From Pocillopora verrucosa (Eukaryota > Cnidaria > Anthozoa > Scleractinia > Pocilloporidae): a DNA stretch of 64,000 nucleotides. The notes below the pieces were generated by a model. It made no database searches. It saw only the letters and a list, made by a program, of their open reading frames with translations, and was not told the origin of the DNA. Within the stretch, counting starts at the first letter, position 1. Every line of letters begins with the position of its first letter. Location of the stretch: assembly GCF_036669915.1 (NCBI RefSeq), contig NC_089318.1, positions 24,545,238-24,609,237 of the forward strand, written 5' to 3'. Position numbers and translations under genes: made by a program. Below, in pieces: positions 4,291-32,529 of this stretch.

Positions 4291-4296
4291 TGCATG

Positions 4297-5475
4297 TTAC
4301 CAGCTGCCTCCGTGACCACCACCTCCACTACTTCCACCTCCACCAAACCCTGCACCACTGCCAAAGCTACCTCCCCCAACCATAGGTGACCTGACAAAAA
4401 TGGGATCAGAAGTAAAACTCCCTGTGTAACTGCTGCTGCCCCATCTGTCCACCATGGTGGGTGTAACAAATGATGGGTGCTGCAGCTGTAACATCATCAG
4501 TCGGAACTGAAGATCAGGGAGGAAGTCATAGGTATGGCAGGCACCACCTTCATCTTCACGTCTGTCAGCTGATTGGCGACAGATTGGACAAGTTGCATGG
4601 TCTTCCAGCCACTTGGTCAAGCAAGGTTCACAGTATTTGTGACCACAAGCCAACAGCCTTGTTTTCGTTTCCGGCTGAAATTCCTCCAAGCAAATGGGAC
4701 ATGATTTGCTTTCATAAGTTTTTTGAGACTGTCTGGCTCTGTCTCTTTCGTCTTGAATTCTCTTCAGTTTTCTTTCACATCTTTTACGTTCTTGTTCTTG
4801 CTTATGCCCAATGTACAGCCCAACACCAACAATAATGATCAACAGCACACAGAAGACGATAAGACCATAGTTTGTTGAACGCTCGAGGACTTTACCGCTG
4901 AAAACTTCACCCATTCGGACAATGGCGAGTTCCACACCTTGATCGTAATCTCTCTTTTGCATGTATGGCTTCATTTCCTCAATGATAATATCAATCTGGT
5001 CATGGGATAACAATTTCATGGCTCTTTTTCCTGTGGAGACATACAGTTGACGATCTAAAATGGAAATCAGCAACATTGCTCCGTCATCACATCCCGCGTG
5101 GCCGACACCCCAGCTGTCATGTAAATGTTTGGCAAACGTCTTCGCTGTTTCTTCCACAGGTTCACCAGGAATGCCTCTCATTCGGTTTAAAACTGCAACG
5201 CCAATTTGAAATCCAGGTTTCTCATCGTTGCTGCACCCTGAATAAGTATTTTTAACAACTGAATATATCAACTCTTCAATCTTGTTGGCAGCCTTGTAGC
5301 TGAGAATATTCTCCGGATCACAGATCCAGGAAACCTCTCCTCTACGACCACAACCTTTAACATCTCTCGTAGGATTCGGAAAATCCTCCTTGTACCATTC
5401 TCTAGTTGCCCTTCCTTCTTGCAGGAAACAAAAAGCCGCAAAAATAACCAGGAAAATAACAGACGCGAATGCCAT
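4297..5475 (-). CDS. TPM-domain, transmembrane, RING-finger protein (copy 2)
   Basis: Intronless ORF of 392 residues. Order: signal peptide (1-23), TPM domain (about 45-195), transmembrane helix (about 204-223), a basic and charged stretch rich in Lys, Arg and Glu (225-255, probably coiled), a C3HC4 RING (Cys259, Cys262, Cys277, His279, Cys282, Cys285, Cys296, Cys299), then a tail ending in Gly-rich repeats and GGSW. The topology predicts an extracellular or luminal TPM domain and a cytosolic RING, so the likely role is a membrane-bound E3 ubiquitin ligase. The ligand and substrates are not evident. A TATA-like motif lies 46 bases upstream of the ATG. It forms a tandem pair with the gene at 1318-2199, and a third copy lies 26 kb away. 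The domain calls are by eye; the TPM-RING pairing is the unusual feature. Confidence 0.87.
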   Translation of the reverse strand: MAFASVIFLVIFAAFCFLQEGRATREWYKEDFPNPTRDVKGCGRRGEVSWICDPENILSYKAANKIEELIYSVVKNTYSGCSNDEKPGFQIGVAVLNRMRGIPGEPVEETAKTFAKHLHDSWGVGHAGCDDGAMLLISILDRQLYVSTGKRAMKLLSHDQIDIIIEEMKPYMQKRDYDQGVELAIVRMGEVFSGKVLERSTNYGLIVFCVLLIIIVGVGLYIGHKQEQERKRCERKLKRIQDERDRARQSQKTYESKSCPICLEEFQPETKTRLLACGHKYCEPCLTKWLEDHATCPICRQSADRREDEGGACHTYDFLPDLQFRLMMLQLQHPSFVTPTMVDRWGSSSYTGSFTSDPIFVRSPMVGGGSFGSGAGFGGGGSSGGGGHGGSW

Positions 5476-5519
5476 TTAGACGACTTTCAATTTTGTTTTG
5501 TCACAAGGATGGCCGCTGA

Positions 5520-5530
5520 CTTATATAAAG
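5520..5530 (-). promoter_or_regulatory. TATA-like box upstream of the TPM-RING gene at 4297-5475
   Basis: On the minus strand the sequence reads CTTTATATAAG about 46 bases before the ATG at 5475. Copies 1 and 3 have a different upstream region without this motif, so copy 2 may have its own promoter. The call rests on motif and distance only. Confidence 0.4.
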
Positions 5531-5944
5531 CAGGCGCGCATCCTTTACGTGGACTACGCGCATTGGCCGCTCGACTTCCTCGCAAGTACCTGAAAATGTT
5601 GCGTCAGGGGCTGTTTACAAAAAGGTTCGTGACTAAAACCCTCCAGAAAAATCTGTAGTGTTTCAGGGCTGCAATTATATCTTTAACCAAGGGAAAGGAT
5701 CACACTCTTCCACTTTACCTACATGTAAATTTCCTTGTTCACTCGATATCCAAAAAGGGTTCTTGTGTAAAGTGCATTCGGTTGCTTTCGCAAAAAAGGT
5801 TCAAGTTTGAACGGTAAAATGTAGTTCTTCCACCTTAAATATATTAATTAAATATTAGAATCAAACCATAGTTAAAATCTTTGAAAAATTGTAAGTTTGC
5901 AAAAATATGTGATTAGAGTTAACTATAAGCAAGTCTCAACTACC

Positions 5945-6140
5945 AGAGGTGATTAACATGTTACTTCTCCCTAGAAATATCTATACATAATTCAACAAAT
6001 AGGTAATGAGAATACTCAAACTTATCAGGTAGAAGTTGTTATCTTGACTTCACAACAAATTCTTGTGACTAATTTAAAAGGAAATGTGTGGCAGCTAAAT
6101 AGGGAGAATTAACAATCAGATCTTGGGAGTCAAGGGTTCA
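5945..6140 (+). repeat. Interspersed repeat, family B
   Basis: Contains ATTCTTGTGACTAATTTAAA, GGAAATGTGTGGCAGCTAAA and AATCAGATCTTGGGAGTCAA, shared with 35787-36015. It fills part of the gap between TPM copy 2 and DNAAF10. Confidence 0.65.
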
Positions 6141-6704
6141 GATACTTGAACTGAGTCCATTTTAAAGAAGCTATTAAACATTCACTTGGTAAAGCTTGGT
6201 CAGTTCATGTTCTCATTCAAAAACTCAATTCTCCTGCATAAATTTGACAAATTTTTCCTCGAAAAACAATTAAGTTCACTGTTATTTGTATTTAATGGCC
6301 CACAAATAGCCCAATCACCAATAGCTTAATCAGGACTGTCCAATAACTGTCCAAGGTTAAACTGAGATTGTCTTTGCTTTATGTTCATGAAAGATGTTTT
6401 AACTCTTCCTTTACACTGTAAACACTTTTAAAAGTAAATAATTTGTACATCTCTTTCAAAACGTGAAGCAGATTAGAATGTCTGAACCTCTATTTCTAGT
6501 ACATTTAACACAACTTTGTGTGATCAGATAAATCAAATGGAACTACTTTCAAAAAGCTGCAAATAATTTTATTACATGTATCAGTCCACAGCCAAGAACC
6601 TCTACAAAATATATTTACATGGAATATTGTGATACAGTTTGAACTTCTTATAAATAAAAATATGTGATGGGTGATCATGAGGAGGGTAGGTGCTAGTAGT
6701 GATG

Positions 6705-9700
6705 TCACACAGTCTTGAGTTTTGTTACAATAATGACTCTTAAACTCTGGTCAAGTGCCGTACACACACAAAGCCCTTCCTATAAAGAAAAAAACAGTAA
6801 AACTGGTGTCAAAAGATTATCAGAGGGAATAACAATGATACAAATAAAGATTTTAGATAATTTAAGTTTGAATTGTTTTATTTAAGAAAACAATTTTTTG
6901 TCCCAGAAAACAACCTCATTGCCATCCCCTTCCTCATCCATTGTCCATTCTACAAGTGTAAAAATTTTTCAGTTTGTGTCCCTCTTCCTCCTCAAGAAAA
7001 TTGCTGACTTTCAGACCCATCCTCTTTGGAAATTCCAATTAGTTCCACTTTATGGGGCTTCAACAGCAAGTGATTTGTGAAATTCCAATTAGTTCCACTT
7101 TATGGGGGCTTCAACAGCATGCGATTTGTGAGGAAACTCTTACAGTAGATCTGATTAAATGAAAAATATCATTTAATTTTAAATATTGACCTTACCATTA
7201 CATGTATGCCAACTGACCTTATCTGGACTCCAGTCAAAGGAAGTGATTGGTTGAGTTGACAGACTGGCATTTTGCAACATTGATACAGAACCCATAACAC
7301 CCATATCCAAGTCTTTTGCATCTTTTGTCACCCGCTGTTCTGGATATGAGCTAGGAATATCAAGTAGATTTGTAAGTAAATATATCAAGAAAACAAGAGA
7401 ACACTTCTGTGCTTACCGATGGTGTGCATTATTTTTGGAAGGAAATTTTCATTTTTGGAGGAATAAGCTCAATATAAGGAGAGTAATTTATTTGACATGT
7501 ACTTTGTAAGACATTGTTTTCCTAATATATTGGAATCCAAAGAATGGTTGCTCACTAAACTAATGGGAGATAGAAGTGGCTCCTGGTGGAAAAAAAAGTG
7601 TTACAAATTATACCACTTACTATTTCCAGAGATTAAGGGACCCAGACCCACCACAGGTCATGAAAATTTCACGGTTTTGTGGCAGATGTCTGACACACCA
7701 AACTGTAGACTTGTGAGCCTGTATGAGATAAATGTTATATTAACAACCAAGAAGAGGAAGAAATTTAAAGAGATCAAAGGTAACCATCTCTAATCACACA
7801 AAGGCCCAAGAAGAGAATCAGAAATAATTGTTAAAGTAAAAAGGTTAATATACAATAATTTTGGTGAAAAGCAATTATAGTTGTGGTTAGTCATAAATTT
7901 CATTGAAAATAAGAGTGTAACTGCACATTTAAAGTTGTCAATGTGACCATAAACTACACAAGTAGTATTACATGTTAACTGCAAATCCTGGGTGTTATAA
8001 ATTAACCCTTTACACTCAAATATCAGTATGCATACCCTTCTCTATAGATTTCCCAAGGAACTGGCAGGGAGAATTTGTTATACAAAAAGAGCTTCTATAG
8101 TTGGTGATCATTCCCTTTCTTCTTGTGACCTTAACGTATGATTCAGGGGTGATATTGTAAGGAGAAATTAGATGCTGGTCACTGTTTGGAGTCAAAGGTT
8201 TAACAGATATAAATGCATATTTAAGTTTCAATCAAATATCACAGAATAAATATTTGCATCAAAGCAAAATACCTTCTCAGAGAGAGAAGCAAATCCTTTC
8301 TCAGGATGTTGTGTTCTTACATCAAACACGTGAAATTTTGATTCTAATGTGGTAGCCACTAGCTTGTTCATCATGATATCTTTTCTATCAAATTCAATTC
8401 CACAAACCTGCCACACAAGAAAATTGTGAGGTTAAAATAAATAGCAATTTGACTACAAAACTTAGATACAAGTAAAACATTGCTTCAAAATTGAATTTCA
8501 ATGTTGTTCACAGTTTTTCCCAAGGCTAAAATCAAATAAAAACAACCACCAATGTTCTAAATCTTGCTTAGCAACCTGGCTTCTCCTCTTTCTTCTATCT
8601 CTTGGTAAGCTTTTTGAAACCTTTCAATGTAGGAGCTCTACGTGAAGCCATTTAAGACTCAAATCATGATAGTTCATTGTGATATCCCAAGCAGCAGCAG
8701 TTCATGTGATTCTCACCATTTGGAAGGGAGTAAATCAAACAAGACAACATCCTCAGGCAATGTAAGAGCACATTTGAAGACAACTATCAAACAGGTTTTT
8801 TTAGGTTTCTTTTAGAATCTTAAATAACAGTAAGTTGTAACTCTTTATACATACTTTTCAATTTGGAATAATACTTTAAATTAAGATCATATTTTTATAA
8901 TCATATTTTAAAACCATTAATAAATAAATAATACCATCAGTTTATAATTTTTAAAAAGGATCACTTTTATCTATTCCAAGTGACCTTACTTAACCATGGT
9001 GAAAATCCGAAAAATAAAGTGATTGACATATGTTATTCACCCCATTTTTAACATTTGTCTCCCATCGGACAGTCATCTTTTTAAGATCAAACATCTTTAT
9101 ATCACCATTGTCGTAGCCTGCTACAACTGAACGTTCTTCTGTATTGTAAGCATCTCCTGTAATAGGTGAAAATTAAATACACTTTGGTCAATAAATGAAC
9201 TGGAACCATAGGAAACACTAGATATCCAATGGATATGACTGTGTAGCAACTAAACTTAAAGCTCTAATTCTAATCTAAAACAAAAATGAAAGAAAAGTAA
9301 AATAACATGATTTTAGCCACTGTTAAAAGTTATTAAAAGCAAATGTTTTAAGTGTTAGCCTTTCCGGCTCAAAACACCAGTGGTGGTTACTTTACATTAT
9401 CAACTCAGAGGATTAAACCAAGTTATCTTGTAATACACTGCACCAATGCAGCACCAAAGTTTGTATTAACCCTTTAACTCCCAGACCAAGTTTGTGATTC
9501 TCCTTACTGTCAACCATACAATTCTTTTAATATTAGTCCAGAGAATTTAGTATTGGATCAACTAATTATCCCATGATTGACATTTTTCTCTATTCTCATC
9601 ACTTATCTGGTTGATATTCATCATCATCATCTTTTACTTGCCTTATTTACACAATAAAAAAAATTTATTTACAGCAGTTATAGCTGGAAGGCGAGGAGAC

Positions 9701-12316: not shown

Positions 12317-13426
12317 GGTTGCGGACCAGAGCAAACACGAACCACTTCACAGCAAATGTACGAAATCTTCCAGGCGTTCTCACCTGGGTAGGATATCGCG
12401 CATGCTTTCGCGCAATGGCCGCTGTACATCATGTCATTGGAGAATGTAGGCACGCAAGACGTTTCAAATATCCCAAATTGATCATAGGGGTTGTGCGAAA
12501 CATAGAGTCACTTTGAGCTATTTATATACTATATTCACTTTCATACTGTCTTTGGTACATTTAGACATAACGATCTACTCCTGCCATACCAATTTTGCTG
12601 TCACATTCATAAATAAATTTTGAGCAGGTTGCACCTTTTTTTTTCTCAGTTTTCCTGACACAATTCGTGGCTTCTCCCCGGTGACTTTTAAGGCGTGTGT
12701 ATGAGAGAGGCTCTTTTCTATTTCCTGTTGACCTTCATTAGTGAATACTGCAAAATATTTCCTCATAAATAGTATGACACTGTTCAGTTTAGAGGGTTCG
12801 ATAACCTGATTCAACAAATGTCGCATAAAATGTTGGCGACATCAATTTTAAATAAAGGGGGTAAGTTTCTAAAAGAACTATGGTGCGGCGTCGGTGGGAG
12901 AGTATAACAAAGTAACTCAGGGACCGCGCAGCAAGTTTTCGAGTGGGGGGGGCTAAAGAAGAATGCGTGAAGGAAAATTTTTTTGTTAAATTATTTTTTG
13001 CTTAATTTATTAATCGACCACTATCTTGCTGAGATATATCACAACCCATAAGCCGAATATTCAGCGATTCATTTTCTCTCCAGGCTTTGAAATTTCTCAC
13101 ACCATCACATAGTACACTTTGAGCAAACAGAAACTTGCCTCACCTCGTGAAGCAAAAAAAAGACTCGTCCGACTACTCTTTTGGAAATGAATAAAATGTC
13201 ACAAAAAAAAAATATCGGCAAAATATTCTTGAAGCAAAAAAATGATGCAGGAGAAGGTTTAGGGTAAGTTTATTTGAATCAACATCAGAGGTACTGATTT
13301 CTTACAAAATTCTCACAGGGGTAAGGATATACCAGTGTAACGTTTTTTGAAGAGAAACTTGTTTACTGCTCAAAGCAGGAGCCAAGCTGAAACGGTTCAG
13401 CAGCTTAAGCCAGAGTAAGTAGCCTT
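12317..13426. other. Gene-free interval between DNAAF10 and the REEP-like gene
   Basis: Upstream region of DNAAF10 and downstream region of the REEP-like gene. Only a foldback fragment (12855-12918) and a poly-A-rich stretch near 13195 stand out. Confidence 0.6.
12855..12918 (+). repeat. Foldback family, flank fragment
   Basis: GTAAGTTTCTAAAAGAACTA followed by GGTGCGGCGTCGGTGGGAGA and TATAACAAAGTAACT matches the outer flank of the other copies; the arms are missing. Confidence 0.5.
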
Positions 13427-14185: not shown

Positions 14186-14725
14186 TTTATGATTTCACTA
14201 ATCAGGTAATTGAATTTAAAGCGCGCAACTCGCGCATGATCTCAAACGGTATGTTAGATGTTGAAAGTTTCACCCCTTACCATCTTTGCGATTTTGCCCC
14301 CTGATGTAAACTGTTTTATTTTAGGGGGGCGAAACGTCCATAAACCGTATGTGAGAGTGACGGATGACTCACCACTGATATCTCGGGCGAATGTATCAAA
14401 TAGACGACGCCTATCTGCCGGTTCTCAGGAGCTCCTAAATTTGGAAAAATATAGGCACAAGAAGTCACGATTTTCACATTTAATTCACTGGTAAATATCA
14501 TATATGAGAGGCACCCGAAAAGCATTTTCTGAAAACCTCGAAAAATGTTGTACAAACTGTCAATATGGATTAGCTTTATGCTGAAGTTTAGAACAGTACT
14601 GGAATTACACTAAAATAAAGCCACCAATAAGTTTTCAACGCAATAGGTAATAAGGGCGAAGGAAGGATTGCGTTTTCCCAAAATCACTCTTTAGAATCTA
14701 CCGCGACTGATCTTTTTTACCACTA

Positions 14726-14768
<43 letters not shown>

Positions 14769-16770: not shown

Positions 16771-19700
16771 ATGGGTCCGTTTTGGAGTCAGATGAAAAGT
16801 TCAGACAGTTCTCTGTACCTTTGGCTCATTCTGTTGGGTAAGTACCAATTTGTTGTAAGAAACAGAGAAAGAAAAATGTCACAATAACTGCGCTCCGAGA
16901 ATAGAACTCAATAAAACTTTCTGACCAATCCATCTTCACGTGGTCGTGGGCCTGGTAAAATGTGCACAAAATTGTTAAAGGAAATTCTATACCCATATGG
17001 TAACAGTGATTTTCTTCGAGAAGTAGGCAAGTGAAGTAATGGCATGACAACTAAGAAGTGCACCCTTATCAAAACAACGTTTCCATGAAGGAAAAAATCT
17101 AAGAGAAATTAAGCCTTTGTTGAAATGGACCACAATAAAGTTGAGGATCAAATATACTTTCACAAATGAGAGAATCTTTTGAGTAGAATTTTTCCAAAAT
17201 GTTTTGAGATATTAAAAAGACATGTTTGCTACATTGCTTCCAAGGTTATAGCTCAATAATCATCCCGTGCACATTAACTCCGCCCCATCTGCGTCAAGAA
17301 CTCGAATTGTTGGACAGAATATTATAACAAAAGATGCATTTTTTAGGCTTCGGCAAGCAGGTTTTTCAGTAGCAACACGGTTTACCCAGAAAACTTCAAA
17401 AGTTTTCGTTCTGTAAGGCTTTGAGCGTACGAAACGAGCGAAACGAGTTCGAAACGAGCTAGACGATTATCCTTTGTAAAAAGTTCATGAAATATTAAAA
17501 ACTTTCCTAGATTTCGTCATTATATAGCTCTGATTTCAGGGGCCATAAAGGTCGGTAGGACATCTTAAAATAAAAGAGCTTAGCATATAGTTGACCGAAG
17601 CATATGACCAAGGCCAACCTGAATATGCTCTCGCGGGACAAATTTTTGGAATAAAATATTTCGCTTTGGAGTGAAGTTCACCTGCATGGCGTCTGCACAT
17701 ACCAAGGAATCGTTTACACGAGTAATAAGCAAATTATATTTGACAATGGTATGCGAATTCCAACTCAAGCACTTTCAATCCAATAAAATCACAATTTAAT
17801 TTATTTTAGCCGCCACGGAAAACAAAACGATGAACACTGTGTCGGTCACCGGGAAGACCCATTAAAATGTAGTGAACAAAGTGACTCAGGATTATTTCGT
17901 GTAAACACATAAAAAACTTACCTGAAAAGAAAAAATCAGTTATTTTATTTTCTCGAGAATAAACAGGATTGTAAAGATTTCCGTATAACTCTAGATTATT
18001 CAAAGCTGTAGTTCCAAAGGCAATCTGTTTTTGCCATTGTTTTCTTTCTCCAAGAACTATAAGCATAATGAGATATAGAGCTGTGCGGAAATCTTGCCAC
18101 ACAATTAGATACGTTGAACAGTTTATAATTAAGTCAAATCCTCTATTGAAATATCGCAAAATGACAGTTGGGCGGCCTAAGCATCTACTAAAGAAGGAAT
18201 GAAGACTTAAAACCATATAATCCCGAATACGCCTTTTTTAATCACTTTTGAGAGGAAAATCATTCGAAACATCCCAGTAATCCAGTCTGGCGCGATTTCA
18301 TTTGTGCTCTTTCTCTGTTCATTGTGGACAACATCATTATCATTCATTATTATTATTTGAGTCCAACATCTTTCGGCTGAGGTTTCACTTGTTAAAATCT
18401 CAACTTCATGGCATTTTTTCTTTTTTTTTTGCTAAATTGTTTAGTGCCATTAATTTGTTTTGTTAAATCGTTTCACTGAAGTATTAATTCTCTGACGCTT
18501 CTATACTCAAGATTTTATTGACGAGTTTGAGTAATCTATTAATGACTTCAATAAAGGCAAGATTTTGACGCAGAAATTGCGGCTTTAAATGTTCTCGCTA
18601 TCTGAAGGGTCTCCAGGGGTGATAGCTTTTACGGTTGACGGTTAATTTCTTTCCGCGTCGATCAAAAGAAAATATTTTACGGTTAACTTTCTTGACGATT
18701 TACAGTTGACTGTTAATCGCATTGAGACCCTCTGTCTAGGTCACTTATCTGTCATTGGAATTGTTCAATTTCCAGCTAGATCTGAAAAGCAGAAACACCA
18801 GAATTACTGTGACTTTATGACACAAGACACTCCAAATTCCTGTCCCCCCCTCCTCCCTCAAGCACATGCAAACAATCGCTAATAAAGGTTTTTTTTTCCC
18901 ACTTTTCGATTCTTTTCTAGTGTTCTTTCCCATAGAGACACAGCCACTAAAAATACTATTGACTCCTCGCCGATCTTCACACTCAGTAAAGGTTGGTGAA
19001 CATGTGACACTGATATGCACAACAGGGCCAAGTGTTAAAGCAACATACAAATGGCAGAATGATTTAGCTATAGGAACAGGAAAAGAGCCGAGTATGATAA
19101 CAGGAAATGCTACATTGAAAATATGGAAGACAAAATTACATCACACTGGAGTCTACAGCTGTACAGAAACACGAAAGGGAGAAGAAATTCTACAACAAAC
19201 CCGTTCGGTTTTGTTAACCATCGTAGGTAAGACTATTATTCTGTTACGATTTAAAGGTATTGTTTGTCTGGTAGGTTTAATGTCATTAGATGCATAACTT
19301 ACACAAGTTTTCCTTTGTTCTATGGTAATCGAATCAATAAGAAACTGCACCTAACAAAGACCTTGTTAATAGAGCAGTTGCGTCCATTTTAACTTCTTTA
19401 AGCGAACAAAACCGCTTACTTTTTTTGCGAAGACCCCGAAGTTGTTCTGATAGCGAAAGCTAAAAGAAAATGGAAATCAAAGATATCCAGTTAATCACAC
19501 TTTGAATTGACGATAGTCCTTGGGGTCGAGGCCCACGCATGAAAGCGAGACGAGTGTCAGCCAGTCCTGGATGGAACCCGAACCCTGATATCGTATGACC
19601 TATAGATCAACACGACACAAATAGTATAGGTTCTCCAAGCGTCAAACGTAACCAAAGATTTATATTGGAAGCTCCGATATGCTCACCTGGCGTGGGTTAG

Positions 19701-21667
19701 CGTTTATAAATGTGTAACAATGAACACTGACTGACTGCAATGTCAACACTACAAACCAAATATTCATAACATTTTCCAAACCAAACTTCTTCATACCACT
19801 AGCTTCTTCGCAGCACCTTGTGTGGAGAATGGCCAATTGACCTTAATTGTTATATACATTTTTTTTAATTTTAGACATGTGCCATGAGGCCACAATTACG
19901 ATTCAACCCACCCTTGCAAGAATTTATTCCGAAGGAACAGACCTCACATTATACTGTGAGTGTTCTAGCAATTCTAATGAAAAGACCATAACATGGATCA
20001 AGAACGGTGCCAAAGTTACACCACATAACCGCCAGAGTATAACTTCGGACGGCAAAAAATTGATGCTCAAGAATGTAAAGTTTGCTGATAGTGGTAAATA
20101 CGCTTGTAATGTTACAGTGGACAGGATGGTGACAGCGACATCAAAGGAACTTGAGCTTTGGGGTACGACCCACAACTTTTATAGGTGGAAGTGTATCTTT
20201 TCAAAAGACTAGTCATTTTACATTCACCAAAGAGAGGGGGGGGCGACTTTGGGGGTCACATGGTTTTCAGGGGAAACAGAGTGGGGGGAATCAGTCATCG
20301 CCGACAGATATAAAGGGAAACTAGAGAAAATGACTGCCAGTTAACCGTTTATACGAGGGGGTGGTGTTAAGTAGACAGGGACAGTAGAATTAAAGATTTC
20401 AAGAAACTCACGGTAACTGGTTTGACGCGCGACTAACACGCCTGCGCTCTGAGACATTTTAAAGTGGTTTTAACTAACTGTGCCTACATTATACCACTGT
20501 TGATATGCGTCTAGTTAATGTTCTATGACGCACGTGCTCATGAGCGCTTGTAATCTCCCCTTTGAGTAAAACTTTGCTAGAACGCATGATGATGAGGCTT
20601 AGACGGGTTAATTCATAAATATACCAAAGAATAAGAATTTGGAGAACACTGAATACCTTACTTACATGACGTGAAAATCACAATATGTCTTTTTTTCCTT
20701 TTCAGTGGGAAACAAACCAGAAATCACTGATTATCCACCGGAAGTAACGCAATTTAAATTGTGGACACAGTATATTTTTTTGACTTGCATAGCAGAGGGA
20801 GTACCATATCCACGAGTAAAGTGGTACTTCAATGGCGGACCTGATGAGTCGCAAATTCCTGTGCCAAACGACGGAACTAATTTCACGGTCTTTGACAACG
20901 GGACCATGGCAATAAGGGAATTCAGATCATATCATGTAGCTGTCTACAAGTGCATGGCTATTAATATCCTGGGGTCTACGAAGAGGATAATTCATATTCA
21001 AACCCCAAGTAAGTTTAACCCGCTGACAATGAAGGCGGCAGCGACGCGAAAGCGATTGGAGAGAGAGAGGAAGGGAGAGAGGGAGGGAGAGAGAGAGTGT
21101 GGAGCGAGTTCTCTAATCTGACCTAATCCTGGTGGAATGAGAGGTTACTCAAATACTTCCAAGAACAGTGTTCTATTTAAAGAGTCATGTGATTTCCGAG
21201 CAGTTTTTTATGTGTGCACTAATGTATTTAGTTTTTTGTGTGCAGTAAAAATAGAAGTACAAAGAAAAGTATCAGCAGCTGAGGGAAAGTCGTTCAATTG
21301 GCGCTGCACAGTCGAAGGTCTTCCAAAACCAAACGTCTACTGGGCGGATGCAAAGAGAAATGAAATAAGAGAAGGCACTCGATTCATAACAAGGTTTGCG
21401 GAGGAATTACGAATACAAAATGTACGCATGGGTGACTCTGGGCGGTACTATTGTGTCGCTTACCGTAATGAAACTCGTGAATCCAAATGGACTGAATTGA
21501 GGATGGACGTTTATGGTAAGTAGTGTTGAGAATGTCCAGCTATAGCACCTGTATCATTAAACAAGGGAAAAATAAAAAGTGCCACGTTATATTATGTAGC
21601 GTCAAGTCAAGTCAAGTCAAGTCGTATAATGAGATTATGATAAAGATGATAATAAATCATAATAATA

Positions 21668-21702
<35 letters not shown>

Positions 21703-21904
21703 AAGATTGAGCTTAGCCTAAACTTCTAATGTTTTTTTCCCCTCCCATGATAGGGCCTGTACCCTAATGAGTTTGTTTTAAAACTCTCCGCATTCAAACC
21801 CTACTTTAAGGACCTTTGCGAAAATAAACTCTTAAAAAAAAAGAATTCATCCGGCAGTAGCGGCTGAAAGCAAAACGCGAACCCGAGGTCTGGGCTGGTC
21901 TTTT

Positions 21905-21940
<36 letters not shown>

Positions 21941-24276
21941 ACGTAAAAATCATACATAGCCATCCAATATTTGATTAAAATAAACTATATAACTATAGCA
22001 GCCTCAGAATGCCTACCCAAAAACGCAAATACTGTATTCTTATCATTATTATTATCATTACTAAAATCATTACTATTTTGAAAAAAAGCATTATCTATTT
22101 TATATATCGCCTTGTCGGGTTACATCATTCCGTGTGAATTAATTTTTTTTTCAATCCATGACTCTGTCTTATCATGTATACTATTAGCATAGCATTTCTT
22201 GGCTCTTATTTCATAGCATTTCTTGGCTCTTATACGTCACAATAGAATTTCATCACAACCATCACAATGCATGTTTCTGGCGAGCCGGGGAGAAAATATA
22301 ATCATTTCTTGCCTGAATATTTGAGACCAAATCATCAATTAAACTTCTTTCTTCTTCATTCAGAAAATGACAGCCTCACAATCAAGTCTTCTCCCAAGAA
22401 TATAACACACGTGTTTACTGGAACAACGGTAACGCTTAGGTGTGAGTTTGACAGTAAAGCACCTTTTACCACCTGGTGGGGCATAAAAGGTTTGGAAGGG
22501 TTGCCAGATTACTATAGAATGAGAGATTATGGCTCCTGGTTAGAAATAGATGACGTGGGGGAGTCTGACAACAACGTTTATTACTGCCGCGCATCGAATG
22601 GTTTCAAAACCGTCACGGCTTACACTCATTTGTCAGTGTATAGTAAGTGGAGGACATGATTACTCAGCCTTATCAATTCACTATTGTCATTTTACCAAAT
22701 AAGGTCACGAGAATGTGCAAAATATGCCACGGTATTACTCTGGGGAACAGGGCAAAAATACGAGACAACAAAATGGCTATACTGAACGATTCAAACTTTG
22801 ATTTTCTTTTCCCTTTTTTAGGCTGAACTTTTAAAGAAAATAACTTTCAAGCGTAATAGATTCTTTGTTGGTCACAAAGAACACTTAAATGGTTACGTTG
22901 GTGTTGTTTCAGCTTGTTTTCGCCTTTTAAGTACTCTTTGTGGGATCGATACGATGCCCAGATAAGGCCTTAAGATGTATTTGGCAAACTAAAATCAAAT
23001 ACTAAAAAGTGAAACAATAGTGGAATAATAAATCCCTTAATCGATGTTTTAATATGTAATTCGAACGGACATTTTGTTCATAGCTCGTATTTTTCCGCGC
23101 CCCTTCGGGCTTCGGAAAAATACTGCTCAACTCGTAAAATATCCGAACTTATTATATATAAAACGATAAAAAAATGCGTATATATTCAGTGAAAGGTCCT
23201 GTTTTTGTCTTTTGTTTGAAAATTCATTATGCTTCGCTGTGGTGTTAAGTCAGAAAATTCGTCAGGTATTGATGAGTCGATTAAGTTAAAAATAAGCTGA
23301 AAAATCAATAAATTTCTGTCCTCAGAGTCTACGGAGTGGAAACCGAGCAACATAACAGTTTACGTCGGAGACTCAGTTTGGTTTCACTGTGATGCACGAA
23401 GGGTCCCTCGATTTCCATTCAAAGTCGCATGGTTTAAACGTGGACAGGGTAGTAAAATGCTCGACAAGAAAAGGTTCCGTGTTATTGCGAACGGTTCGAT
23501 CCACATAACTGATATTCGGCTCAATGACGAAGGAAAGTATTTCTGTATTACCAACAAAAACTTCAAACAGACCTTTGGAACGCGGTATCTTCTAGTTAGA
23601 GGTAAACCCTGTCAGAGGTACTTTGGAATATTTCTTAATGTTACAAAAGAACCACTAAACTTCGTGCAAGGTGTCACTAGCCGTCTAAGAAATCCTTATG
23701 CAGGTAAATTTGGGATAGGTTTTATAAAAGTGGTTAGTTCAAATCAATAATAATAATGCAAAACAAGAGAGAAAAAGTGATCCCATTATATTCTCCTGCA
23801 TGAGACCAAATAAGAACGTCAGGGCCAAGATTTTTGGGTCAACTGACTGCCGCGTATATCAGCAAATTATTTTTCGGTTGTTGACATTAAATATGGTCCT
23901 TCTAGTGAGAACGTTGGTACAAAATCAGGATCCGCTATTCAATTTTTTAAGTCGTAACACTTTTCTCCTCGGCACAAATAATGTTCAAACAAGCTAAACA
24001 AGAAACTTAGAATTTCAAAATTTAGATGAGCTGTTAAGTATTGGTCACGAAGTGAAAGTGGGCCACATCCATGACGGCTGGTATGGTAACCATTATAACA
24101 GACATTTACACACATCTTCAAAACTTTTTAATTCATATATCTTATTTACTTTTACAGAAAAACTCAACGGAACCAAAAAAACACCACATCAACTTACGGC
24201 TGCGTGCAAGAAATATCGAAGTCATTTTCCTGTAGTGATTTTCGTGGTAGTAGTGATTTATGCTGTACTTCTTTGA
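16771..24276 (+). CDS. Six-Ig-domain cell-surface protein with signal peptide and probable GPI anchor
   Basis: Eight exons assembled by splice sites: 16771-16837 (signal peptide, ends LYLWLILL), 18921-19226, 19875-20162, 20706-21008, 21246-21515, 22364-22642, 23326-23601 and 24158-24276. Every intron is phase 1, and each middle exon encodes one whole Ig domain; the total is 635 codons plus stop. Each domain shows the first Cys, the core Trp and the Y-x-C motif (GVYSC, GKYACN, AVYKC, GRYYC, NVYYC, GKYFC). Several N-glycosylation sequons are present. The last exon ends in a short polar spacer with Ala-Ala-Cys, then SHFPVVIFVVVVIYAVLL and stop, with no cytoplasmic tail, as in GPI-anchored proteins. 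Domains resemble I-set Ig of adhesion molecules and receptors; there is no kinase or ITIM. An alternative start of exon 2 is 18936, also in frame. A role in adhesion or recognition is inference. Confidence 0.85.
21600..21703. repeat. (GTCAA)n and (GAT)n microsatellites
   Basis: Four to five GTCAA units at 21600-21622 and about twelve ATG/GAT units near 21668-21703, in the intron after the fourth Ig exon. Confidence 0.85.
21906..21938. repeat. Poly-T tract
   Basis: About 31 Ts in a row in the Ig-gene intron, preceded by GGTCTTTTCA. It may be the tail of a retroposed element on the minus strand, but no body was recognised. Confidence 0.8.
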
Positions 24277-26855
24277 CACGCGCAATCAAACATTCTTATT
24301 GTTTTTCTTTTATCGTTATTGTGGAAACAACAGCTGTCATTTAAATGTTGTTACGGCCACACCATAGAGAGTGGCCGACAGTGTGCTGCTTGTTGCTGTA
24401 ATCATATCCCTCATGAGCTGAAATTTCAGTCTTCTTGAAATACAAATGTAATTATAGTTGGCCACGGAATCCTCTTTAAATGCTCAATAGTTACAGGTAC
24501 TGTCCCACTCCGCGAGAATGTTGGAGATGAAGCACCGCCTTGTATTATTGTAAAATTCTGATAAAATTATTCACCGAGATCTTGTGGTGAAGGAAAAGAG
24601 CGTTCAACCAGCGGGGGTGATTTTTTTTTGACATAAAACATGATTTAGATTTGAAAAATTCAGGTCATCAGGCAATAAATGATAACAAAGCAAACGAGAA
24701 ATGAAGTCTTTGATTGAGGAATCAGTGAATCAATGAATCAGTGACACTACCATGAAATCGATGAATTAAGCAACTTAGCACACTCCCTTAACCACTAAAC
24801 TATACATCAACCCACTCACTAACCGACTAATTAATCACTCACTATGGAATGACTGATCAATTCACTGACCAGCGCCTTTCAACTGGTACAACGCTTAACG
24901 TTGCACTGGTTGAATAAAGAAGAGCGTTACATCATCTCTCATAGATTTCACCGGTTTTCGCTGGGCTGCTGTCTAAACGTGACACAGGCGTATGTTCAAA
25001 GACGCTCTTGGCCATTCATTCAATGACATTTGCGCCGACTACTCGAAATCTTCGCGCGCTTTTCCCTGCCCCAGTTAATAAAAAGAAAACTCGATGCACT
25101 GGCGAGTATATCAAAACATGATAAGTTTAAAGAAATGCGTAGTTTTCTGATGTTACTTATTAAAAGTGAACTGATTCATCCCGCCATGTTTAGCAAGTTT
25201 TTGGCTCAAAAAAAAAAACATTTGATCATTTAGTCTGATCGTCCATGTGAGAATAGTTTTGTAAAAGACTAATTTTGGTCGCACAGAGACAAACCTACGT
25301 ATGCTGAGCAGAAGTAATCATTAGGGTCAAGTCATTAGAGTAACTCGACCCTGATGATGACTTATGTTCAGGCCGTTAAAACGTCAGGACCACACTAACC
25401 CAGAGGTCAGACTGAACGATCAACTATAGCCCGTGAGGGAGCCCTCCTGACTGCTGCTACACGAGCGCTGAAATCTTAGCCGTGAGAGGTCTCTAAGGGG
25501 TCTGGGTAAGGCAGATCCCTCACAATCCTTTAGCGCACCAACATATACCGTGAACATTGCTTATTTTCAATCGAACCCTGCCATAGCATATGGCCAGGGG
25601 ATATCAAAAAAGGGACCCATTTAAACTTTGAATATATTTATTTTCCACATTATATGTATTAATGTTTACCGTAACTGATGCCAGCGATTTACAGAAAAGT
25701 TTGAAATAACTGCTGCCACCTTCGGTTGCAGATACATTAAAATTTATTTCTTCAGATAGGAAACTGATTGTGTCAAAGTGCACGAGTCAGAGAAATGAAC
25801 ACCGCGCGGCCAGAGAGAATGAAGTGCCTCTCTAGAAAAAAAAAAAAAGACCCTATATATAGCATGTGTAACGAAAATGTCCTGGCAGCTCGTCTCCACC
25901 ATACTGGGTGAGAAGAGGAGAGACCGTGGGAACGAGGTTGTGTCATTATTTGAAGTCACTCAGGAGTAAAGTGAAAGCCGTTCAGTTAGTTTTGAGTAAT
26001 AACCGAAAGACTTAAGTACTCCAAAACTGCTTGCAATACCCATTTTACCTGTTTCATCCCGTTTTCCATACGTATTTTTGGTTAAAACCTAGCAAAATTT
26101 TCGAGAGATGAGGGAGGCCTTGATGAGGAAATATAACCAAAATACGGTTGCCTTTTTAGAAAACAATGATTCAACAGGTTGATTCGAAAATTTGCATAAT
26201 GTGGCACCGATGCAAATTGGAAATTGAAAGACTCGCTCATGGTCAGATCTTTTGATCCGATGTTCACGTTAACTAATAAAGATCCCAGTCAACAATATAT
26301 TCTGAGTAATCCTAATTTAAAATATCCTGCCTTCTTTGATTTGATATTTGTCATTAGGTATCAATATCGTAACACTTTTCTGTAGGGGGTTTACGAAACA
26401 AAAGCAACAGGTCTATTATTAAGGAAACATTCGAAACAAAAAACTCGAGATGTTAATCACCTGAAAAAAATAGCAGATTTCATAAAGGAAGGATTAAAAT
26501 TCGTAACTACTGAGAAATTCGATTGAAAAAATGGATCGTCAAATCTATTGAATGGAACAACGACAAGCTTTGAAATCTTCTGTTATTGTTGAAAATTTAT
26601 GCTTGCTTGCGCGCAAAAGAAATATGATCAAATCACTCGCGCGCTCGTGTTTCGTTATGCAAATCCAAGATCTTTTGTTGTTGATGACAAATGACGTGTA
26701 CAACTTTAACAAAACAATATTTTCTCAGCTGATGAACACGCAATAACACAACGGCAGCACCGCTTATTCTTGACGTCAACATCTAGAAAACTGAAGCCGT
26801 CGAAATTTTTAAATCCCTCGGCAGTTAAGGTAAACACAAGTTTAAGTAACTGACC
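24277..26855. other. Gene-free interval between the Ig gene and the RING-TRAF gene
   Basis: Contains a possible AATAAA for the Ig gene at 24674-24679, a low-complexity AATCA/ACTCA-rich stretch near 24720-24860 and no ORF with domain character. Confidence 0.6.
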
Positions 26856-27764
26856 ATGGGTTACGGCCTAAACAAATTTGTGAACCACGTGGATCAAAAT
26901 CTGCTTTGTAGTATTTGCGCCGGTGTTTTACAGGAAGCGGTTATAACACCTTGTGGACACTCGTTCTGTGATGAATGCTTGCATATATGGCTAAGCAGAC
27001 CCAACACAACGACTTGTCCTTCTTGCCGCTCCGACGTTCCACCTTACGATGTCATTCCCGTGTTGGCGTTGAGAGGAGTCGTAGAGGGCCTGGCGGTACA
27101 CTGTGATAATGATGAACACGGTTGTAAAATGGTTTTAAAACTGGAAAAACTACCAGCCCATTTACAAGAGTGCGAGTTTGCGTTGATTGAGTGCGGCGCG
27201 TGTGGGAAAAGCGTGAAACGGTTCGAGTTACCAGACCATCACGAAGAGTGTGAGATTATAAAAAATTTGGTTGCAAAACACAAGAAGACACAGAAAGAAG
27301 AACTCACCATCGATAACCTTACAAAACAGATTGCACTGCTGGAAGTGGATTTAAACAAGACTAAAACAGCTTTGAGAGAATCAGAGGGGGATGTGCGCCG
27401 GGTCAAACGGGAACTGAGAGAATTACAATTTCAGTTGGAGGTGAGAATGTCAGAGGAGCAAGAATTTGATCAAGACTGGGACCCGGAATATAACTATGGG
27501 TATTCTCCCTCAAGCATCGCCCAACTTGCTAGTTTGGTGTCTCGATATCTTTTGAACAAACCGTATTATGTTGACAGGAATCGCATTTTTAACGCGATCA
27601 AACGCTGTTATGATTACTACCACGGGTACGCTGGTTATTCACAAGATGTACACATGTTACTTGCTGCGAGTTATGCAAGTAATTGGTTCACGGAGAACCA
27701 ACGATCAAACTTCGATTCGTGGCTGCAAAATCTTGCGCGAGCGCGGTTTTTGATTTCAAGCTAA
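26856..27764 (+). CDS. RING finger plus TRAF-like zinc-finger protein with coiled coil, intronless
   Basis: Single ORF of 302 residues. C3HC4 RING at the N-terminus (Cys18, Cys21, Cys33, His35, Cys38, Cys41, Cys54, Cys57), followed by two TRAF-type Cys/His fingers (Cys83, Cys90, His102, Cys106; Cys113, Cys116, His128, Cys132), then a charged coiled coil (about 138-200). This is the plan of NRDP1/RNF41- and RNF151-like E3 ligases. The last 80 residues (about 222-302) are a helical, Tyr-rich region that I do not recognise, in place of the C-terminal domain of NRDP1. Likely a cytosolic E3 ubiquitin ligase. There are no introns, no frame breaks, and the nearest genes lie 2.5 kb upstream and 3.2 kb downstream. 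Assignment to a specific vertebrate orthologue is not possible by eye. Confidence 0.88.
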   Translation: MGYGLNKFVNHVDQNLLCSICAGVLQEAVITPCGHSFCDECLHIWLSRPNTTTCPSCRSDVPPYDVIPVLALRGVVEGLAVHCDNDEHGCKMVLKLEKLPAHLQECEFALIECGACGKSVKRFELPDHHEECEIIKNLVAKHKKTQKEELTIDNLTKQIALLEVDLNKTKTALRESEGDVRRVKRELRELQFQLEVRMSEEQEFDQDWDPEYNYGYSPSSIAQLASLVSRYLLNKPYYVDRNRIFNAIKRCYDYYHGYAGYSQDVHMLLAASYASNWFTENQRSNFDSWLQNLARARFLISS

Positions 27765-29839
27765 TGACTTGATCGCGAAAGATCGCTTTTGTTTTCAACG
27801 TCAGGCGATAAATTTGCATTTTTCCAGCATGACTTAAACATTGATATTGAAAATGTTCGCCGCATTTCATGTAATATTCCAGATCAAAGAAGTGCTGTCG
27901 TAAAACTTAAGGTTAATATTTGTTGTAAGATTTTTAAATTACTTAAAATCTTTGTCAAAGAGACTAATTAATCTGTGACAGCAGGTTGAACTAAGAGATC
28001 TTTACAAATTGTTCAAACAAGTGATATTGCGGCGGTTATGGATTGTTAATAAAGCGAAATGATGCGAAATTGTTTCCAAAACATGTATGTGAGTATTGTG
28101 TTCCTACAATGTCAAAACAAGAAAAGAATGAACGCCCGATAAATTTTGAATGAAAGGGAATTTTAGATATCGTTCTTAATGGAGTTTTAGCAAGTTCCGC
28201 CAATGATATTCCCATGCAAAATTTATTTGTGTTGAATCTTTCTAAGAAAACAAACAACTCCATAACCTGAGGCAGCCTAGTCTCTTTAGAAACGATCGCA
28301 GATCTCTGAAAAATCCACCGCTAAATTGATGAAAAAGGGAAATGAAATTAAAGTTTTCGATCAAATTGAATGAGATCCATTTCCCTCACACGTCCATTAA
28401 ATTCAATTCCTTTTATCGAACGCGAAGAAAAAAACTTCATCTGAATAGCAATCAGGTCTACAGCTATTAAGCTGATAGGATTTTCTATACAATGAAGGAA
28501 AAAGAAAGAAAGAGTGATAAGAGTGTAATGTTTCACATAAGCTGGGCAAACTACTGTTCTCGCAGTCACTTTTCCTCGTGGCCAGCAAACGTGTGCTACT
28601 GACCAATATCAAAATTCGAACCGTATAAGTACAGCTAAAACTGCAAGTTCTTGAACAAGGAAAGACCTTTCATTGATAAGAATACTGTTTTATCCGATAA
28701 TTAATCAGATAAACATATCTTTCAGCGGTAAAGAAGAGATTATTTGCAAATTCATAATCTCAACTTTAATACTCGTTTGTTCTTTCCTTAGAACAACCGT
28801 ATCAGCTTCTGGTTTCCCTTATTTCCTCAATTCTTTATGTTAGCATATGATATTGTGTTTTCATCCTTGACCTTCTTTCGGGCTAATTCGTTTGTTTCCT
28901 TCGTGACCCTCATAACATGATAATTAAAAAATCCTATGATTTCTTCTAGAATGATTTGTTTGCGTATTAACAGGAAACTAATCTTCACTGTCGGGTTTTC
29001 GAGAAAGACTCCGAAAGAGAGGCCGCTCCTTTAAAGAACCGCTTCACCACAATTCTAGTATTAAAAAAAGACAAAACGGAAATAAGTTACTCAAATCGAG
29101 TCTTAACACTTAATTATAACTGACAGTATTTTGTAAACAAGCACAAGAAGAGACACTTGTATTCTTGCCTCTGAAGGTCACTTCACGCCAAACCCAACCT
29201 TTAACTCCCAAGATGTGATTACCAATTCTTCTAACTAGTTGCCTCCAATTGTCTTTCATGTTAGTTTAAAGATTTGGTTCTATGAAGATAATTGTTCTGT
29301 CCTTAGCTTTCCTTGATTCATTCAGTCTCCTATCCAAATGACTATGACTGTACCACCGACACAAATGGTTTAGGTGAGCTATTGTCTTCCAAGAAGATAA
29401 TAGCTCACAGTATCTTTTTCAATATCATCCAAGAAGACACAAACCTTCAGATGCCCTAACTTCTCTGCTACGTACAGACAAAATGCCGGCAAATCAAGCC
29501 ATGCACAAGGTATATGTATCATAACCATCCCGTGTACTACTAGCTTGTTCAGCCGCTTTGAATAACCTCCTAAATTTTTGAGACAAAATCAGGTTCAGAT
29601 TTCATTGAGTTTTTCAAGGTGTCGCCGTGGTGAGTACTCTGTATCTTCACTCTTTGATCAATAATTACAATCCTATTATCTCGGCCAGAACCAGAACAAT
29701 CTGGGGTCGTGGTCTTACAGGGTTTACCAGCACTCTATCCCACGATTCCACCTTAGGAAAGGGGTCTGGAGCGAGCATCTCGACCCTTGGAGTATAACAA
29801 GAATAGCTCACCGGGCGAGTTTGTACAAAGTGGGTTTCA
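27765..29839. other. Gene-free interval
   Basis: AT-rich DNA after the RING-TRAF gene with a diverged family B remnant near 29196-29345. No gene recognised. Confidence 0.6.
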
Positions 29840-30252
29840 TTTTTGAGGGTTACGGTACAAATAGAACAGAAATTGGCGTAGCCTTGGCAAACATCAACAG
29901 CATTTTGTCTTCAGACACTCTACTTAAAATGTGACGACGACAGCAAATGGAGAGGTTTAAATCTCTTTAATTGGAGCGCTGTAGATTTTTTACAGGATTG
30001 CTCACGTCTACTGCATGTAAAGAAAATAAATCTTAAGCCGTCCTTCCACTATCTTTAAGAAACTAAAATACATATAGAGGAAAAACTAAAACTTGTTCCA
30101 ATCTTGTTGACCTCCATTGATATCAAAAGGAGTTCGAATTGTTTACAATTGCGATTTATATAATTTGAAATGTGGCTCCAAACGAATACATGGGCTCAAT
30201 CATCTCTTAGTGGTCTTTATTGGTTTAAAGGGCTTGTGCCAACTACTAGTTT
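29840..30252 (+). repeat. 413-bp direct repeat, left copy
   Basis: Starts TTTTTGAGGGTTACGG and ends ACTACTAGTTT. It aligns without gaps to 33372-33784, with only a few substitutions (for example AACATCAAC against AACGTCAAC), so the duplication is recent. No coding content is recognised. Confidence 0.9.
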
Positions 30253-30945
30253 ATCTTTACATTTCAAAATCTGAACAACTGTTCCATGGATAAATCAAAT
30301 AGTTCTAATCATAAGAAGTTATCAACTTTTGATTTTCATAATTTGAAATATTCAGCACATCATGGAATGAACAGACTTCAAATTCAGAACTGAAGATTTT
30401 TTGATCTGATGACACTAGGCCTCTATTTTCCTCACTCAATAGAATACTATGTGATGATTGCGGACCACTATTTATGGCAAATAAAAGTGCTACTGCAGAC
30501 TACAAATAACACTAAAGTTTTAACTGTGGCTCTTGTGGGAATGCAAGATATCATATAAAATCAAGCATAACATCCCTTTCAGTTTAGCCTAGAAGTGCCA
30601 TGACACATTAAGTTTACTTAACCAATCCTGACCCATATTTGAACCAGTAACCTGACGCTCACGGAAGACATAACATTTTTTTCAGCTCATATTTGAGTCA
30701 CGTTTTACATATACATTGTACAGCAATGAAAAACTGTCCATGCCAACTTATTCTGAGCTGCACTAGCCTGGAAACTGATATCAATGTCATCATCATCATT
30801 ATAAGCCTTATGACAATGTGTACACAAAATTTACCTTCAGTTAGTAGAAAGAGGAAGACCCTCTACAAGAACTCCAGGATTTAAAACTGAGGTACCCTCT
30901 GTATGTTCTTTGCTTGTGAAAGTCTTCATCAAATATCCATGCATG

Positions 30946-32121
30946 TTACCAGCTGCCTCCATGACCACCACCTCCACTACTTCCACCCCCACCAAACCCT
31001 GCACCACTGCCAAAGCTACCTCCCCCAACCATAGGTGACCTGACAAAAATGGGATCAGAAATAAAACTCCCTGTGTAACTGCTGCTGCCCCATCTGTCCA
31101 CCATGGTGGGTGTAACAAATGATGGGTGCTGCAGCTGTAACATCATCAGTCGGAACTGAAGATCAGGGAGGAAGTTATCGGTATGGCAGGCACCACCTTC
31201 ATCTTCACGTCTGTCAGCTGATTGGCGGCAGATTGGACAGGTTGCATGGTCTTCTAACCACTTGGTCAAGCAAGGTTCACAGTATTTGTGACCACAAACC
31301 AACAGCCTTGTTTTCGTTTCCGGCTGAAATTTCTCCAAGCAAATGGGACATGATTTGCTTTCATAAGTTTTTTGAGACTGTCTAGCTCTGTCTCTTTCGT
31401 CTTGAATTCTCTTCAGTTTTCTTTTACATCTTTTACGTTCTTGTTCTTGCTTAGGCCCAATGTACAGCCCAACACCAACAATAATGATCAACAGCACACA
31501 GAAGACGACATGACCATAGTTTGTTGAACGCTCGAGGACTTTACCGCTGAAAACTTCACCCATTCGGACAATGGCGAGTTCCACACCTTGATCGTAATCT
31601 TTCTTTAGCATGTATGGCTTCATTTCCTCAATGATAATATCAATCTGGTCATCGGATAACAACTCCATGGCTCTTTTTCCTGTGGAGACATACAGTTGAC
31701 GATCTAAAATGGAAATCAGCAACATTACTCCGTCATCACATCCCGCGTGGCCGACACCCCAGCTGTAATGTAAATGTTTGGCAAACGTCTTCGCTGTTTC
31801 TTCGACAGGTTCACCAGGAATGGCACTCATTCGGTTTAAAACTACAACGCCAATTTGAAATCCAGGTTCCTTATCGTTACTGCACCCTGAAGCAGTATTT
31901 TTAACAATTGAATACAACAACTCTTCAATCATATCGGCAGCCTCGTAGCTGAGAATATTCTCTGGATCACAGATCCAGGAAACCTTTCCTCTGCGACCAC
32001 AAGCTTTTACATCTCTCGTAGGATCCGGAAAATCCTGCGCGTACCATTCTCTAGTTGCCTCTCCTTGAAGGAAACAGAAAGCTGCAAAAATAACCAGGAA
32101 CATAGCTGATACGCTCGCCAT
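30946..32121 (-). CDS. TPM-domain, transmembrane, RING-finger protein (copy 3)
   Basis: Intronless ORF of 391 residues, nearly identical to the gene at 4297-5475 from the TPM domain to the Gly-rich GGSW end. It has a signal peptide (1-22), TPM domain (about 44-194), transmembrane helix (about 203-222), and a C3HC4 RING with all eight ligands present (SCPICLEKF start, CGHKYC centre, CPICR end). Compared with copy 2, a short piece of about 26 bases is missing just after the stop codon, where the 3' flank goes straight from ATATCCAT to GCATGTTACC. The upstream flank matches that of copy 1 rather than copy 2, so it probably derives from a copy-1-like locus that still had its RING. Likely role: membrane-bound E3 ligase with an extracellular TPM domain; substrates unknown. 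Confidence 0.87.
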   Translation of the reverse strand: MASVSAMFLVIFAAFCFLQGEATREWYAQDFPDPTRDVKACGRRGKVSWICDPENILSYEAADMIEELLYSIVKNTASGCSNDKEPGFQIGVVVLNRMSAIPGEPVEETAKTFAKHLHYSWGVGHAGCDDGVMLLISILDRQLYVSTGKRAMELLSDDQIDIIIEEMKPYMLKKDYDQGVELAIVRMGEVFSGKVLERSTNYGHVVFCVLLIIIVGVGLYIGPKQEQERKRCKRKLKRIQDERDRARQSQKTYESKSCPICLEKFQPETKTRLLVCGHKYCEPCLTKWLEDHATCPICRQSADRREDEGGACHTDNFLPDLQFRLMMLQLQHPSFVTPTMVDRWGSSSYTGSFISDPIFVRSPMVGGGSFGSGAGFGGGGSSGGGGHGGSW

Positions 32122-32529
32122 CCTAACGATTTTCTTGGATTATGGCGGCTTAAACACTGAAAAATTCGTATCACAGACAGTGACGTTCAAACTCTCCTAG
32201 AGGGGAAAGAAGAAAACCGAAGGTTACTTATTCAGTGGCTTTAATAATGGCATTTCTCTCGGCTGAGAACGAAAATCGACAAGGCCGAAAGAATTGCCAC
32301 AGGCCGATTTGGCCTTTTACCTGAAAGATTTCTTCTGTCAGTAAGGACGAAGTCGATGATTGAGAATTTTGTCAAATACGCCCAAAATTGCTTGTGTAAG
32401 CATGATTCACGCATCATTACCCACTGCGCGTTTTATTCGGGAATCGTCGATTCCTTTATTTTCATTTAACAATAAAGTCGGCTTTTCTTGTCATGTCTAT
32501 TGTATTTATTTGTTTAAAAAAATAATACA

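Follow-up and report, generated by a model that had tools for sequence, protein, structure and literature searches.

What does a membrane protein do that carries a TPM domain and a RING finger in a single chain? The question was raised by a stretch of 64,000 nucleotides of the Pocillopora verrucosa genome (contig NC_089318.1; the whole stretch is hereafter called the window), in which an initial annotation had described three local, intronless copies of such a gene. All three genes lie on the reverse strand, as do all of their parts given below. Copies 2 and 3, at 4297–5475 and 30946–32121, encode proteins of 392 and 391 amino acids with the same architecture: an N-terminal hydrophobic segment, a MOLO1/TPM ectodomain, one membrane helix, a C3HC4 RING and a glycine-rich tail. 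Copy 1 (1318–2199, 293 amino acids) lies outside the interval 4297–32121 covered by the annotation. It has the ectodomain, the helix and the tail, and the Pfam scan found no RING family in it, so that the description as TPM–RING proteins holds for copies 2 and 3 and fails for copy 1. The coding part of each copy is one open reading frame (ORF), intact and without introns, as had been stated.

Architecture of the three proteins

In the Pfam scan, for which the protein of copy 1 was used minus its first methionine, copies 1, 2 and 3 scored 69.8, 71.5 and 76.2 bits with MOLO1 (PF17175, cut-off 27), the top-scoring ectodomain profile, and 60.4, 62.8 and 65.2 bits with TPM (PF04536, cut-off 22.1). 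The profile search that the initial annotation had called for thus placed the TPM domain of all three copies above the curated cut-offs. NCBIfam gave a weak resemblance to Psb32, far below the cut-off. The MOLO1/TPM ectodomain spans residues 27–189 of copy 2 (4909–5397) and residues 26–188 of copy 3 (31558–32046) by Pfam, the latter also by structure prediction, and four ectodomain cysteines are common to the three copies. An AlphaFold2 model of copy 3, built from 38 aligned sequences, gave a predicted local distance difference test (pLDDT) score of 83–97 per 10-residue block of the ectodomain from residue 31 on, and of 56 for residues 21–30. When the modeled ectodomain was searched with Foldseek, it matched the solved TPM domains of BA41 (E = 1.5e-7), Rhodothermus TPM, TLP18.3, Psb32 and BA42, with a weaker match to a subunit of mycobacterial respiratory supercomplexes (E = 0.016 or worse). 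The predicted fold of the copy 3 ectodomain is that of a TPM domain.

Topology was inferred from hydropathy and charge. In each copy, the TPM domain is followed by one strong hydrophobic helix (peak 2.7–3.5), at residues 204–222 of copy 2 (4810–4866) and 205–223 of copy 3 (31453–31509); around the latter, the model has a single long helix comprising residues 201–254. The N-terminal hydrophobic segments of copies 2 and 3 exceed the hydropathy threshold of 1.6, consistent with signal peptides, and the first 30 residues beyond the helix have a net charge of +6 in copy 2 and +8 in copy 3, which argues for a cytosolic C-terminus in both. The signal peptide, the one membrane helix and the charged region after it had been proposed for these two copies and are upheld by these values. 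Type I membrane RING proteins would be the best explanation of copies 2 and 3.

The C3HC4 RING stands in the same open frame as the TPM domain, as had been claimed, at residues 258–300 of copy 2 (4576–4704) and 257–299 of copy 3 (31225–31353). It scored 51.6 and 49.4 bits, respectively, with the Pfam profile zf-RING_2 (cut-off 27.3), and some other RING models scored below their own cut-offs. All eight zinc ligands are present, followed by an arginine after the last cysteine, which we take to be the linchpin for the ubiquitin-conjugating enzyme (E2) and its ubiquitin. Alignments to RNF4, RLIM, RNF126 and RNF38 keep the eight ligand positions and this arginine; the fifth ligand is Cys (CGHKYC) in the window RING and in RNF4, and His in RLIM, RNF126 and RNF38. 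Sequence matches of the window RING include AMFR/gp78, synoviolin and ZNRF3. A separate AlphaFold model of the copy 3 RING alone, built from 3 sequences, reached a pLDDT of 81 and matched RNF126, RNF12/RLIM, RNF38, RNF165, RNF4 and RNF13 in Foldseek (E = 1.7e-4 to 6.2e-4); several of the matched structures were solved with an E2 bound. We infer from the sequence that the terms ubiquitin ligase (E3) and receptor could apply to copies 2 and 3.

The glycine-rich tail and bacterial TPM proteins

The tail lies at 1321–1383 in copy 1, where it ends in GGGIIGGGGSGGSW, at 4300–4362 in copy 2, where it ends in GGGSSGGGGHGGSW, and at 30949–31011 in copy 3. We compared it with the ends of bacterial TPM proteins, using 80 of the 580 loci confirmed in a bacterial genome scan; two cut loci were dropped, leaving 78 with a complete 3′ end. 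The tail was not in the scan query, which was rich in Bacteroidota, and the sample is Bacteroidota-rich for that reason. In 74 of the 78 complete proteins, the end consists of GGGG, three to four residues, and W or F, giving the motif GG-x-x-GGGG-x4-[W/F], in which GG at −13/−12 and GGGG at −9 to −6 do not vary among the 74; the motif is missing in four loci (L021, L045, L066 and L072). Counting glycines in the last 20 residues gave 70 of 78, because four serine-rich tails escape that criterion. In three loci from Bacteroidota (L034, L036 and L040), a long serine run stands in place of much of the glycine and the terminal GG-x-x-GGGG-x4-W is kept, so the conserved feature is the final motif and not the glycine content.

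All three window copies fit the bacterial register, and among the 626 stop-to-stop ORFs of at least 40 amino acids in the window, the end motif occurs in only three, which are the three copies. The TPM protein YgcG of E. coli ends in GGGGSSGGGGASGRW. A tblastn search with copy 3 returned TPM domains only, in four plasmid records and one phage record; these five bacterial or phage proteins also end in a glycine-rich tail that includes W or F, and the last GGGG is GGG in the phage protein. Judged by its sequence, the GGSW tail of the window copies is the C-terminal signature of bacterial YgcG-type TPM proteins. The tail noted in the initial annotation is therefore real in all three copies, but it is no local novelty. 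The match in register suggests that the window proteins keep the bacterial TPM plan, with the RING lying inside it, and the fact that an apparently animal protein keeps a bacterial tail in register implies that the tail probably has a function of its own.

The interval between helix and tail that the RING occupies in copies 2 and 3 is the one that holds zinc modules in bacteria. Of the 78 bacterial proteins, 38 have at least two CxxC motifs downstream of the TPM domain, in every case after the last hydrophobic segment and before the tail. Pfam gave weak zinc-ribbon matches for them, the two commonest families each being found in 13 of the 78 at E = 0.01 or better. The RING may have replaced a bacterial zinc module or have arrived independently.

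The ectodomains were also compared at a G-x-G-L-E stretch, which was not found in any of the three window copies. GYGLEG was present in all 35 bacterial rows picked from the 78 loci, which had been partly selected for GYGLEG; in six bacterial or phage rows not selected for the motif, G-x-G-L-E was present in all and the exact GYGLEG in two. BA41 carries GYGVEH at this position.

Scans with the three-copy alignment detected no relatives in genome or viral contigs, and a viral-contig scan with the cytosolic part of copy 3 likewise detected none; these scans used short exact patterns, which reach close relatives only. When bacterial TPM was the query, one locus (L087) came up in the viral contigs; it was not used. 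Bacterial TPM genes adjoin annotated LemA-family genes in L002 and L005; in L006, which is unannotated, the ORF beside the TPM gene appeared LemA-like by eye.

A proposed function and the divergence of the copies

The reading that we favor, with roughly even confidence, is that the TPM ectodomain docks on a membrane complex, which the RING then ubiquitinates, and that copy 1 binds only. Copies 2 and 3 would be built on an ancient bacterial-type plan of signal peptide, TPM ectodomain, membrane helix and glycine-rich tail, with the RING lying between helix and tail. The MOLO1-type ectodomain would attach to a membrane protein complex from its extracellular or luminal side, by analogy with TPM proteins and photosystem II, or MOLO-1 and the acetylcholine receptor. 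The RING would recruit E2–ubiquitin and ubiquitinate the bound complex, which would then be turned over, taken up by endocytosis or passed to quality control. Copy 1 has an almost identical ectodomain but lacks the RING; it would engage this partner and leave it unmarked, as a stabilizer or competitor. Two roles have been put forward for TPM proteins, that of a phosphatase or that of a chaperone-like factor by which membrane complexes are assembled and repaired (PMC11237479, PMC7487766; these papers, like the others cited here, are drawn on in extract). MOLO-1 crosses the membrane once and associates with the nematode levamisole-sensitive acetylcholine receptor (PMC9714921). A more far-reaching version, which we offer only tentatively, is that an ancient prokaryotic assembly factor was rewired in an animal into a turnover device, with the RING in the place of the zinc module and the proteins with and without RING, whose ectodomains are nearly identical, forming a pair that marks or spares the same target.

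Several observations weigh against the docking model. In the full-length model of copy 3, the RING block has a pLDDT of only about 45–60, the RING being covered by just two near-identical rows, and of the five RING-only models two reached 80–81 and three only 48–50. Copy 1 has no N-terminal segment above the hydropathy threshold of 1.6, and a net charge of 0 across the first 30 residues beyond the helix. Among the 38 zinc-bearing bacterial relatives, 19 have two or three hydrophobic segments after the TPM domain, so the bacterial zinc module need not be cytosolic. The absence of G-x-G-L-E from the window copies may mean that an enzymatic or metal site of the TPM domain has been lost or altered; the same absence mildly favors binding over catalysis for these ectodomains. 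Finally, the effects of TPM proteins on receptors vary: according to the extract (PMC9714921), MOLO-1 decreased the response of one receptor and did not change that of others.

Of the alternatives, the one that survives best, albeit as an unlikely one, is a quality-control ligase of the secretory pathway or an endosomal ligase, in which the TPM domain would recognize misassembled luminal proteins and the RING would act in endoplasmic reticulum (ER)-associated degradation or in sorting, with no role as a surface receptor. The sequence matches of the RING to AMFR/gp78 and synoviolin, the chaperone-like role proposed for TPM domains (PMC11237479) and the ER or endosomal location of some PA-TM-RING ligases (PMC4021871) are consistent with such a ligase. 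However, the best ectodomain profile is MOLO1, and MOLO-1 has been described as residing in the surface membrane (PMC9714921); a housekeeping factor would also be less expected to duplicate locally and to accumulate amino-acid changes mainly in the ectodomain, as described below.

Compared with copies 2 and 3 per 100 alignment columns, copy 1 agrees at 87–98% over most of the ectodomain and at 78–99% over the 3′ flank, and at 35–78% from the membrane helix up to the tail. Similarity between the cytosolic segment that replaces the RING region in copy 1 (1384–1530) and that of copy 2 was not detectable in shuffle tests: the local DNA score was 17 versus a shuffle mean of 16.7, with 475 of 1000 simple shuffles reaching 17, and the protein score was 27 versus a mean of 24.6, with 296 of 1000 reaching 27. 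With no leftover similarity in the cytosolic part, copy 1 does not look like a simple deletion of copy 2, and the RING may have been either gained or lost. The pattern is, as far as the alignment goes, one of homologous flanks, possibly homogenized by conversion, that enclose a different cytosolic cassette.

The initial annotation had called the ectodomains highly conserved, but this is where amino-acid changes between copies 2 and 3 are concentrated. The ectodomain (residues 25–200) has a nonsynonymous divergence (dN) of 0.061, a synonymous divergence (dS) of 0.071 and a ratio (w) of 0.86, versus a dN of 0.020, a dS of 0.058 and a w of about 0.35 from the membrane helix to the end (nonsynonymous 9/451 versus synonymous 7/125, p = 0.057). 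The signal-peptide stretch (residues 1–24), with seven nonsynonymous and six synonymous differences, was excluded from both sides. The nonsynonymous excess in the ectodomain had p = 0.004, in a comparison chosen post hoc and based on few changes, and synonymous change did not differ between the ectodomain and the rest (p = 0.79). For the RING alone, w was 0.12, from six changes; there are two nonsynonymous differences in the RING and none in the tail. Positive selection on the ectodomain was not shown between these two copies (nonsynonymous 24/417 versus synonymous 8/111, p = 0.65, after rounding fractional counts of 24.5 and 7.5 to 24 and 8).

Both the cassette pattern of copy 1 and the higher w of the ectodomain would suit ligand-sensing paired receptors, in which like ectodomains are carried on a signaling part (RING) or a non-signaling part (copy 1) under immune or self/non-self diversification. 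We consider this quite improbable: the w of the ectodomain is not above 1, there are only three copies, and we know of no ligand for any TPM domain.

Copies 1 and 2 adjoin each other and have their 3′ flanks in common, that of copy 1 (114–1317) being homologous to that of copy 2 (3086–4296) and in part to 30253–30945 beside copy 3. Parts of the upstream region are common to copies 1 and 3 and missing from copy 2. The shared upstream region is broken 5′ of copy 3, at about 32210–32610, by a stretch that could not be aligned to copy 1 and is perhaps a small mobile element; by eye it contains an imperfect palindrome, and the repeat search listed no inverted repeat of at least 20 nt. Copy 3 and its 5′ and 3′ flanks make up a 3119-bp segment (30253–33371) with direct repeats of 413 bp at both ends (29840–30252 and 33372–33784), which differ at 2 of 413 positions.

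The shared flanks show DNA-based copying, in agreement with the local duplication proposed earlier, and the family evidently arose by DNA-level duplication of genes that were already without coding introns. Retroposition is ruled out by the 0.7–1.2 kb of shared 3′ flank and by the upstream parts shared between copies 1 and 3. The 413-bp repeats resemble a large duplication of the target site or the result of an insertion made during repair; the simplest reading, although unproven, is that the segment was inserted and a large target was duplicated, and since the repeats are nearly identical, copy 3 appears to have been inserted recently. An LTR (long terminal repeat) transposon is unsupported, as the repeat has no TG start or CA end. 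That the copies are recent duplicates in partial decay, with one ancestral gene active and the local copies relaxed or non-expressed, might be suggested by the repeat-bounded segment of copy 3, the unalignable stretch upstream of it and the ectodomain w near 1, but is very unlikely in view of the three intact frames, the shared ectodomain cysteines and tail register, the full set of RING ligands in copies 2 and 3, and a RING and tail that are nearly unchanged between them.

Two other features lie between copies 2 and 3. The first is a further single-ORF RING gene (26856–27764, 302 amino acids), which has a TRAF-type zinc finger match below the Pfam cut-off. An origin of the window RING from this gene is unsupported: its RING is 38% identical to that of copy 3 and has another best RING profile. 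The second is a series of five consecutive ORFs (18866–22659), all matching immunoglobulin (Ig)-domain profiles above the cut-off, which are probably exons of a multi-Ig surface protein.

Comparison with known systems

Among the papers listed by term searches of the open-access PubMed Central literature, none reported TPM and RING joined in one protein, and the domain order may already sit unremarked in animal protein annotation. In bacteria, plastids and animals, TPM proteins help to assemble or repair membrane complexes, in ways that are poorly understood. A TPM domain fused to a probable ubiquitin ligase would offer a direct handle on its binding partner, because the target should be ubiquitinated.

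The bacterial YgcG-type TPM proteins (PF04536) share with the window copies the N-terminal TPM domain, the membrane segment or segments and the terminal GG-x-x-GGGG-x4-[W/F], and 38 of the 78 have CxxC zinc motifs between membrane and tail. They differ in that their modules are at best zinc-ribbon-like, whereas copies 2 and 3 have a RING, and in that the window copies lack the G-x-G-L-E of bacteria and share the four ectodomain cysteines. ZNRF3 and RNF43 share the logic of a single-pass, receptor-directed RING ligase, and the RING of ZNRF3 is among the sequence matches; to our knowledge, neither has a TPM domain. MOLO-1 (PF17175), an auxiliary subunit of the nematode levamisole receptor, resembles the window proteins in being single-pass and in giving the best ectodomain profile; unlike for copies 2 and 3, no RING is mentioned in the extract describing it (PMC9714921). 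Plasmodium TPM2 has a signal peptide, a TPM domain and a C-terminal membrane helix, but it resides in the crystalloid and no RING is described in the extract (PMC7487766).

A further comparison is with the PA-TM-RING ligases (RNF13, RNF128/GRAIL, RNF130 and RNF167), which are defined by a PA domain, a membrane helix and a RING-H2 (PMC4021871). Signal peptide, ectodomain, one helix and a RING with an RNF13-like fold occur in the same order in copies 2 and 3, which have TPM in place of PA, C3HC4 in place of RING-H2, and the glycine-rich tail in addition. No PA family was among the Pfam matches listed (all 22 for copy 3 and 25 of 28 for copy 2), and the fifth ligand is Cys, which departs from the RING-H2 set even though zf-RING_2 is the best profile. 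Copies 2 and 3 consequently fall outside the PA-TM-RING family. They have the logic of that family, as had been anticipated, with another ectodomain, and by this analogy the two proteins may work like PA-TM-RING ligases.

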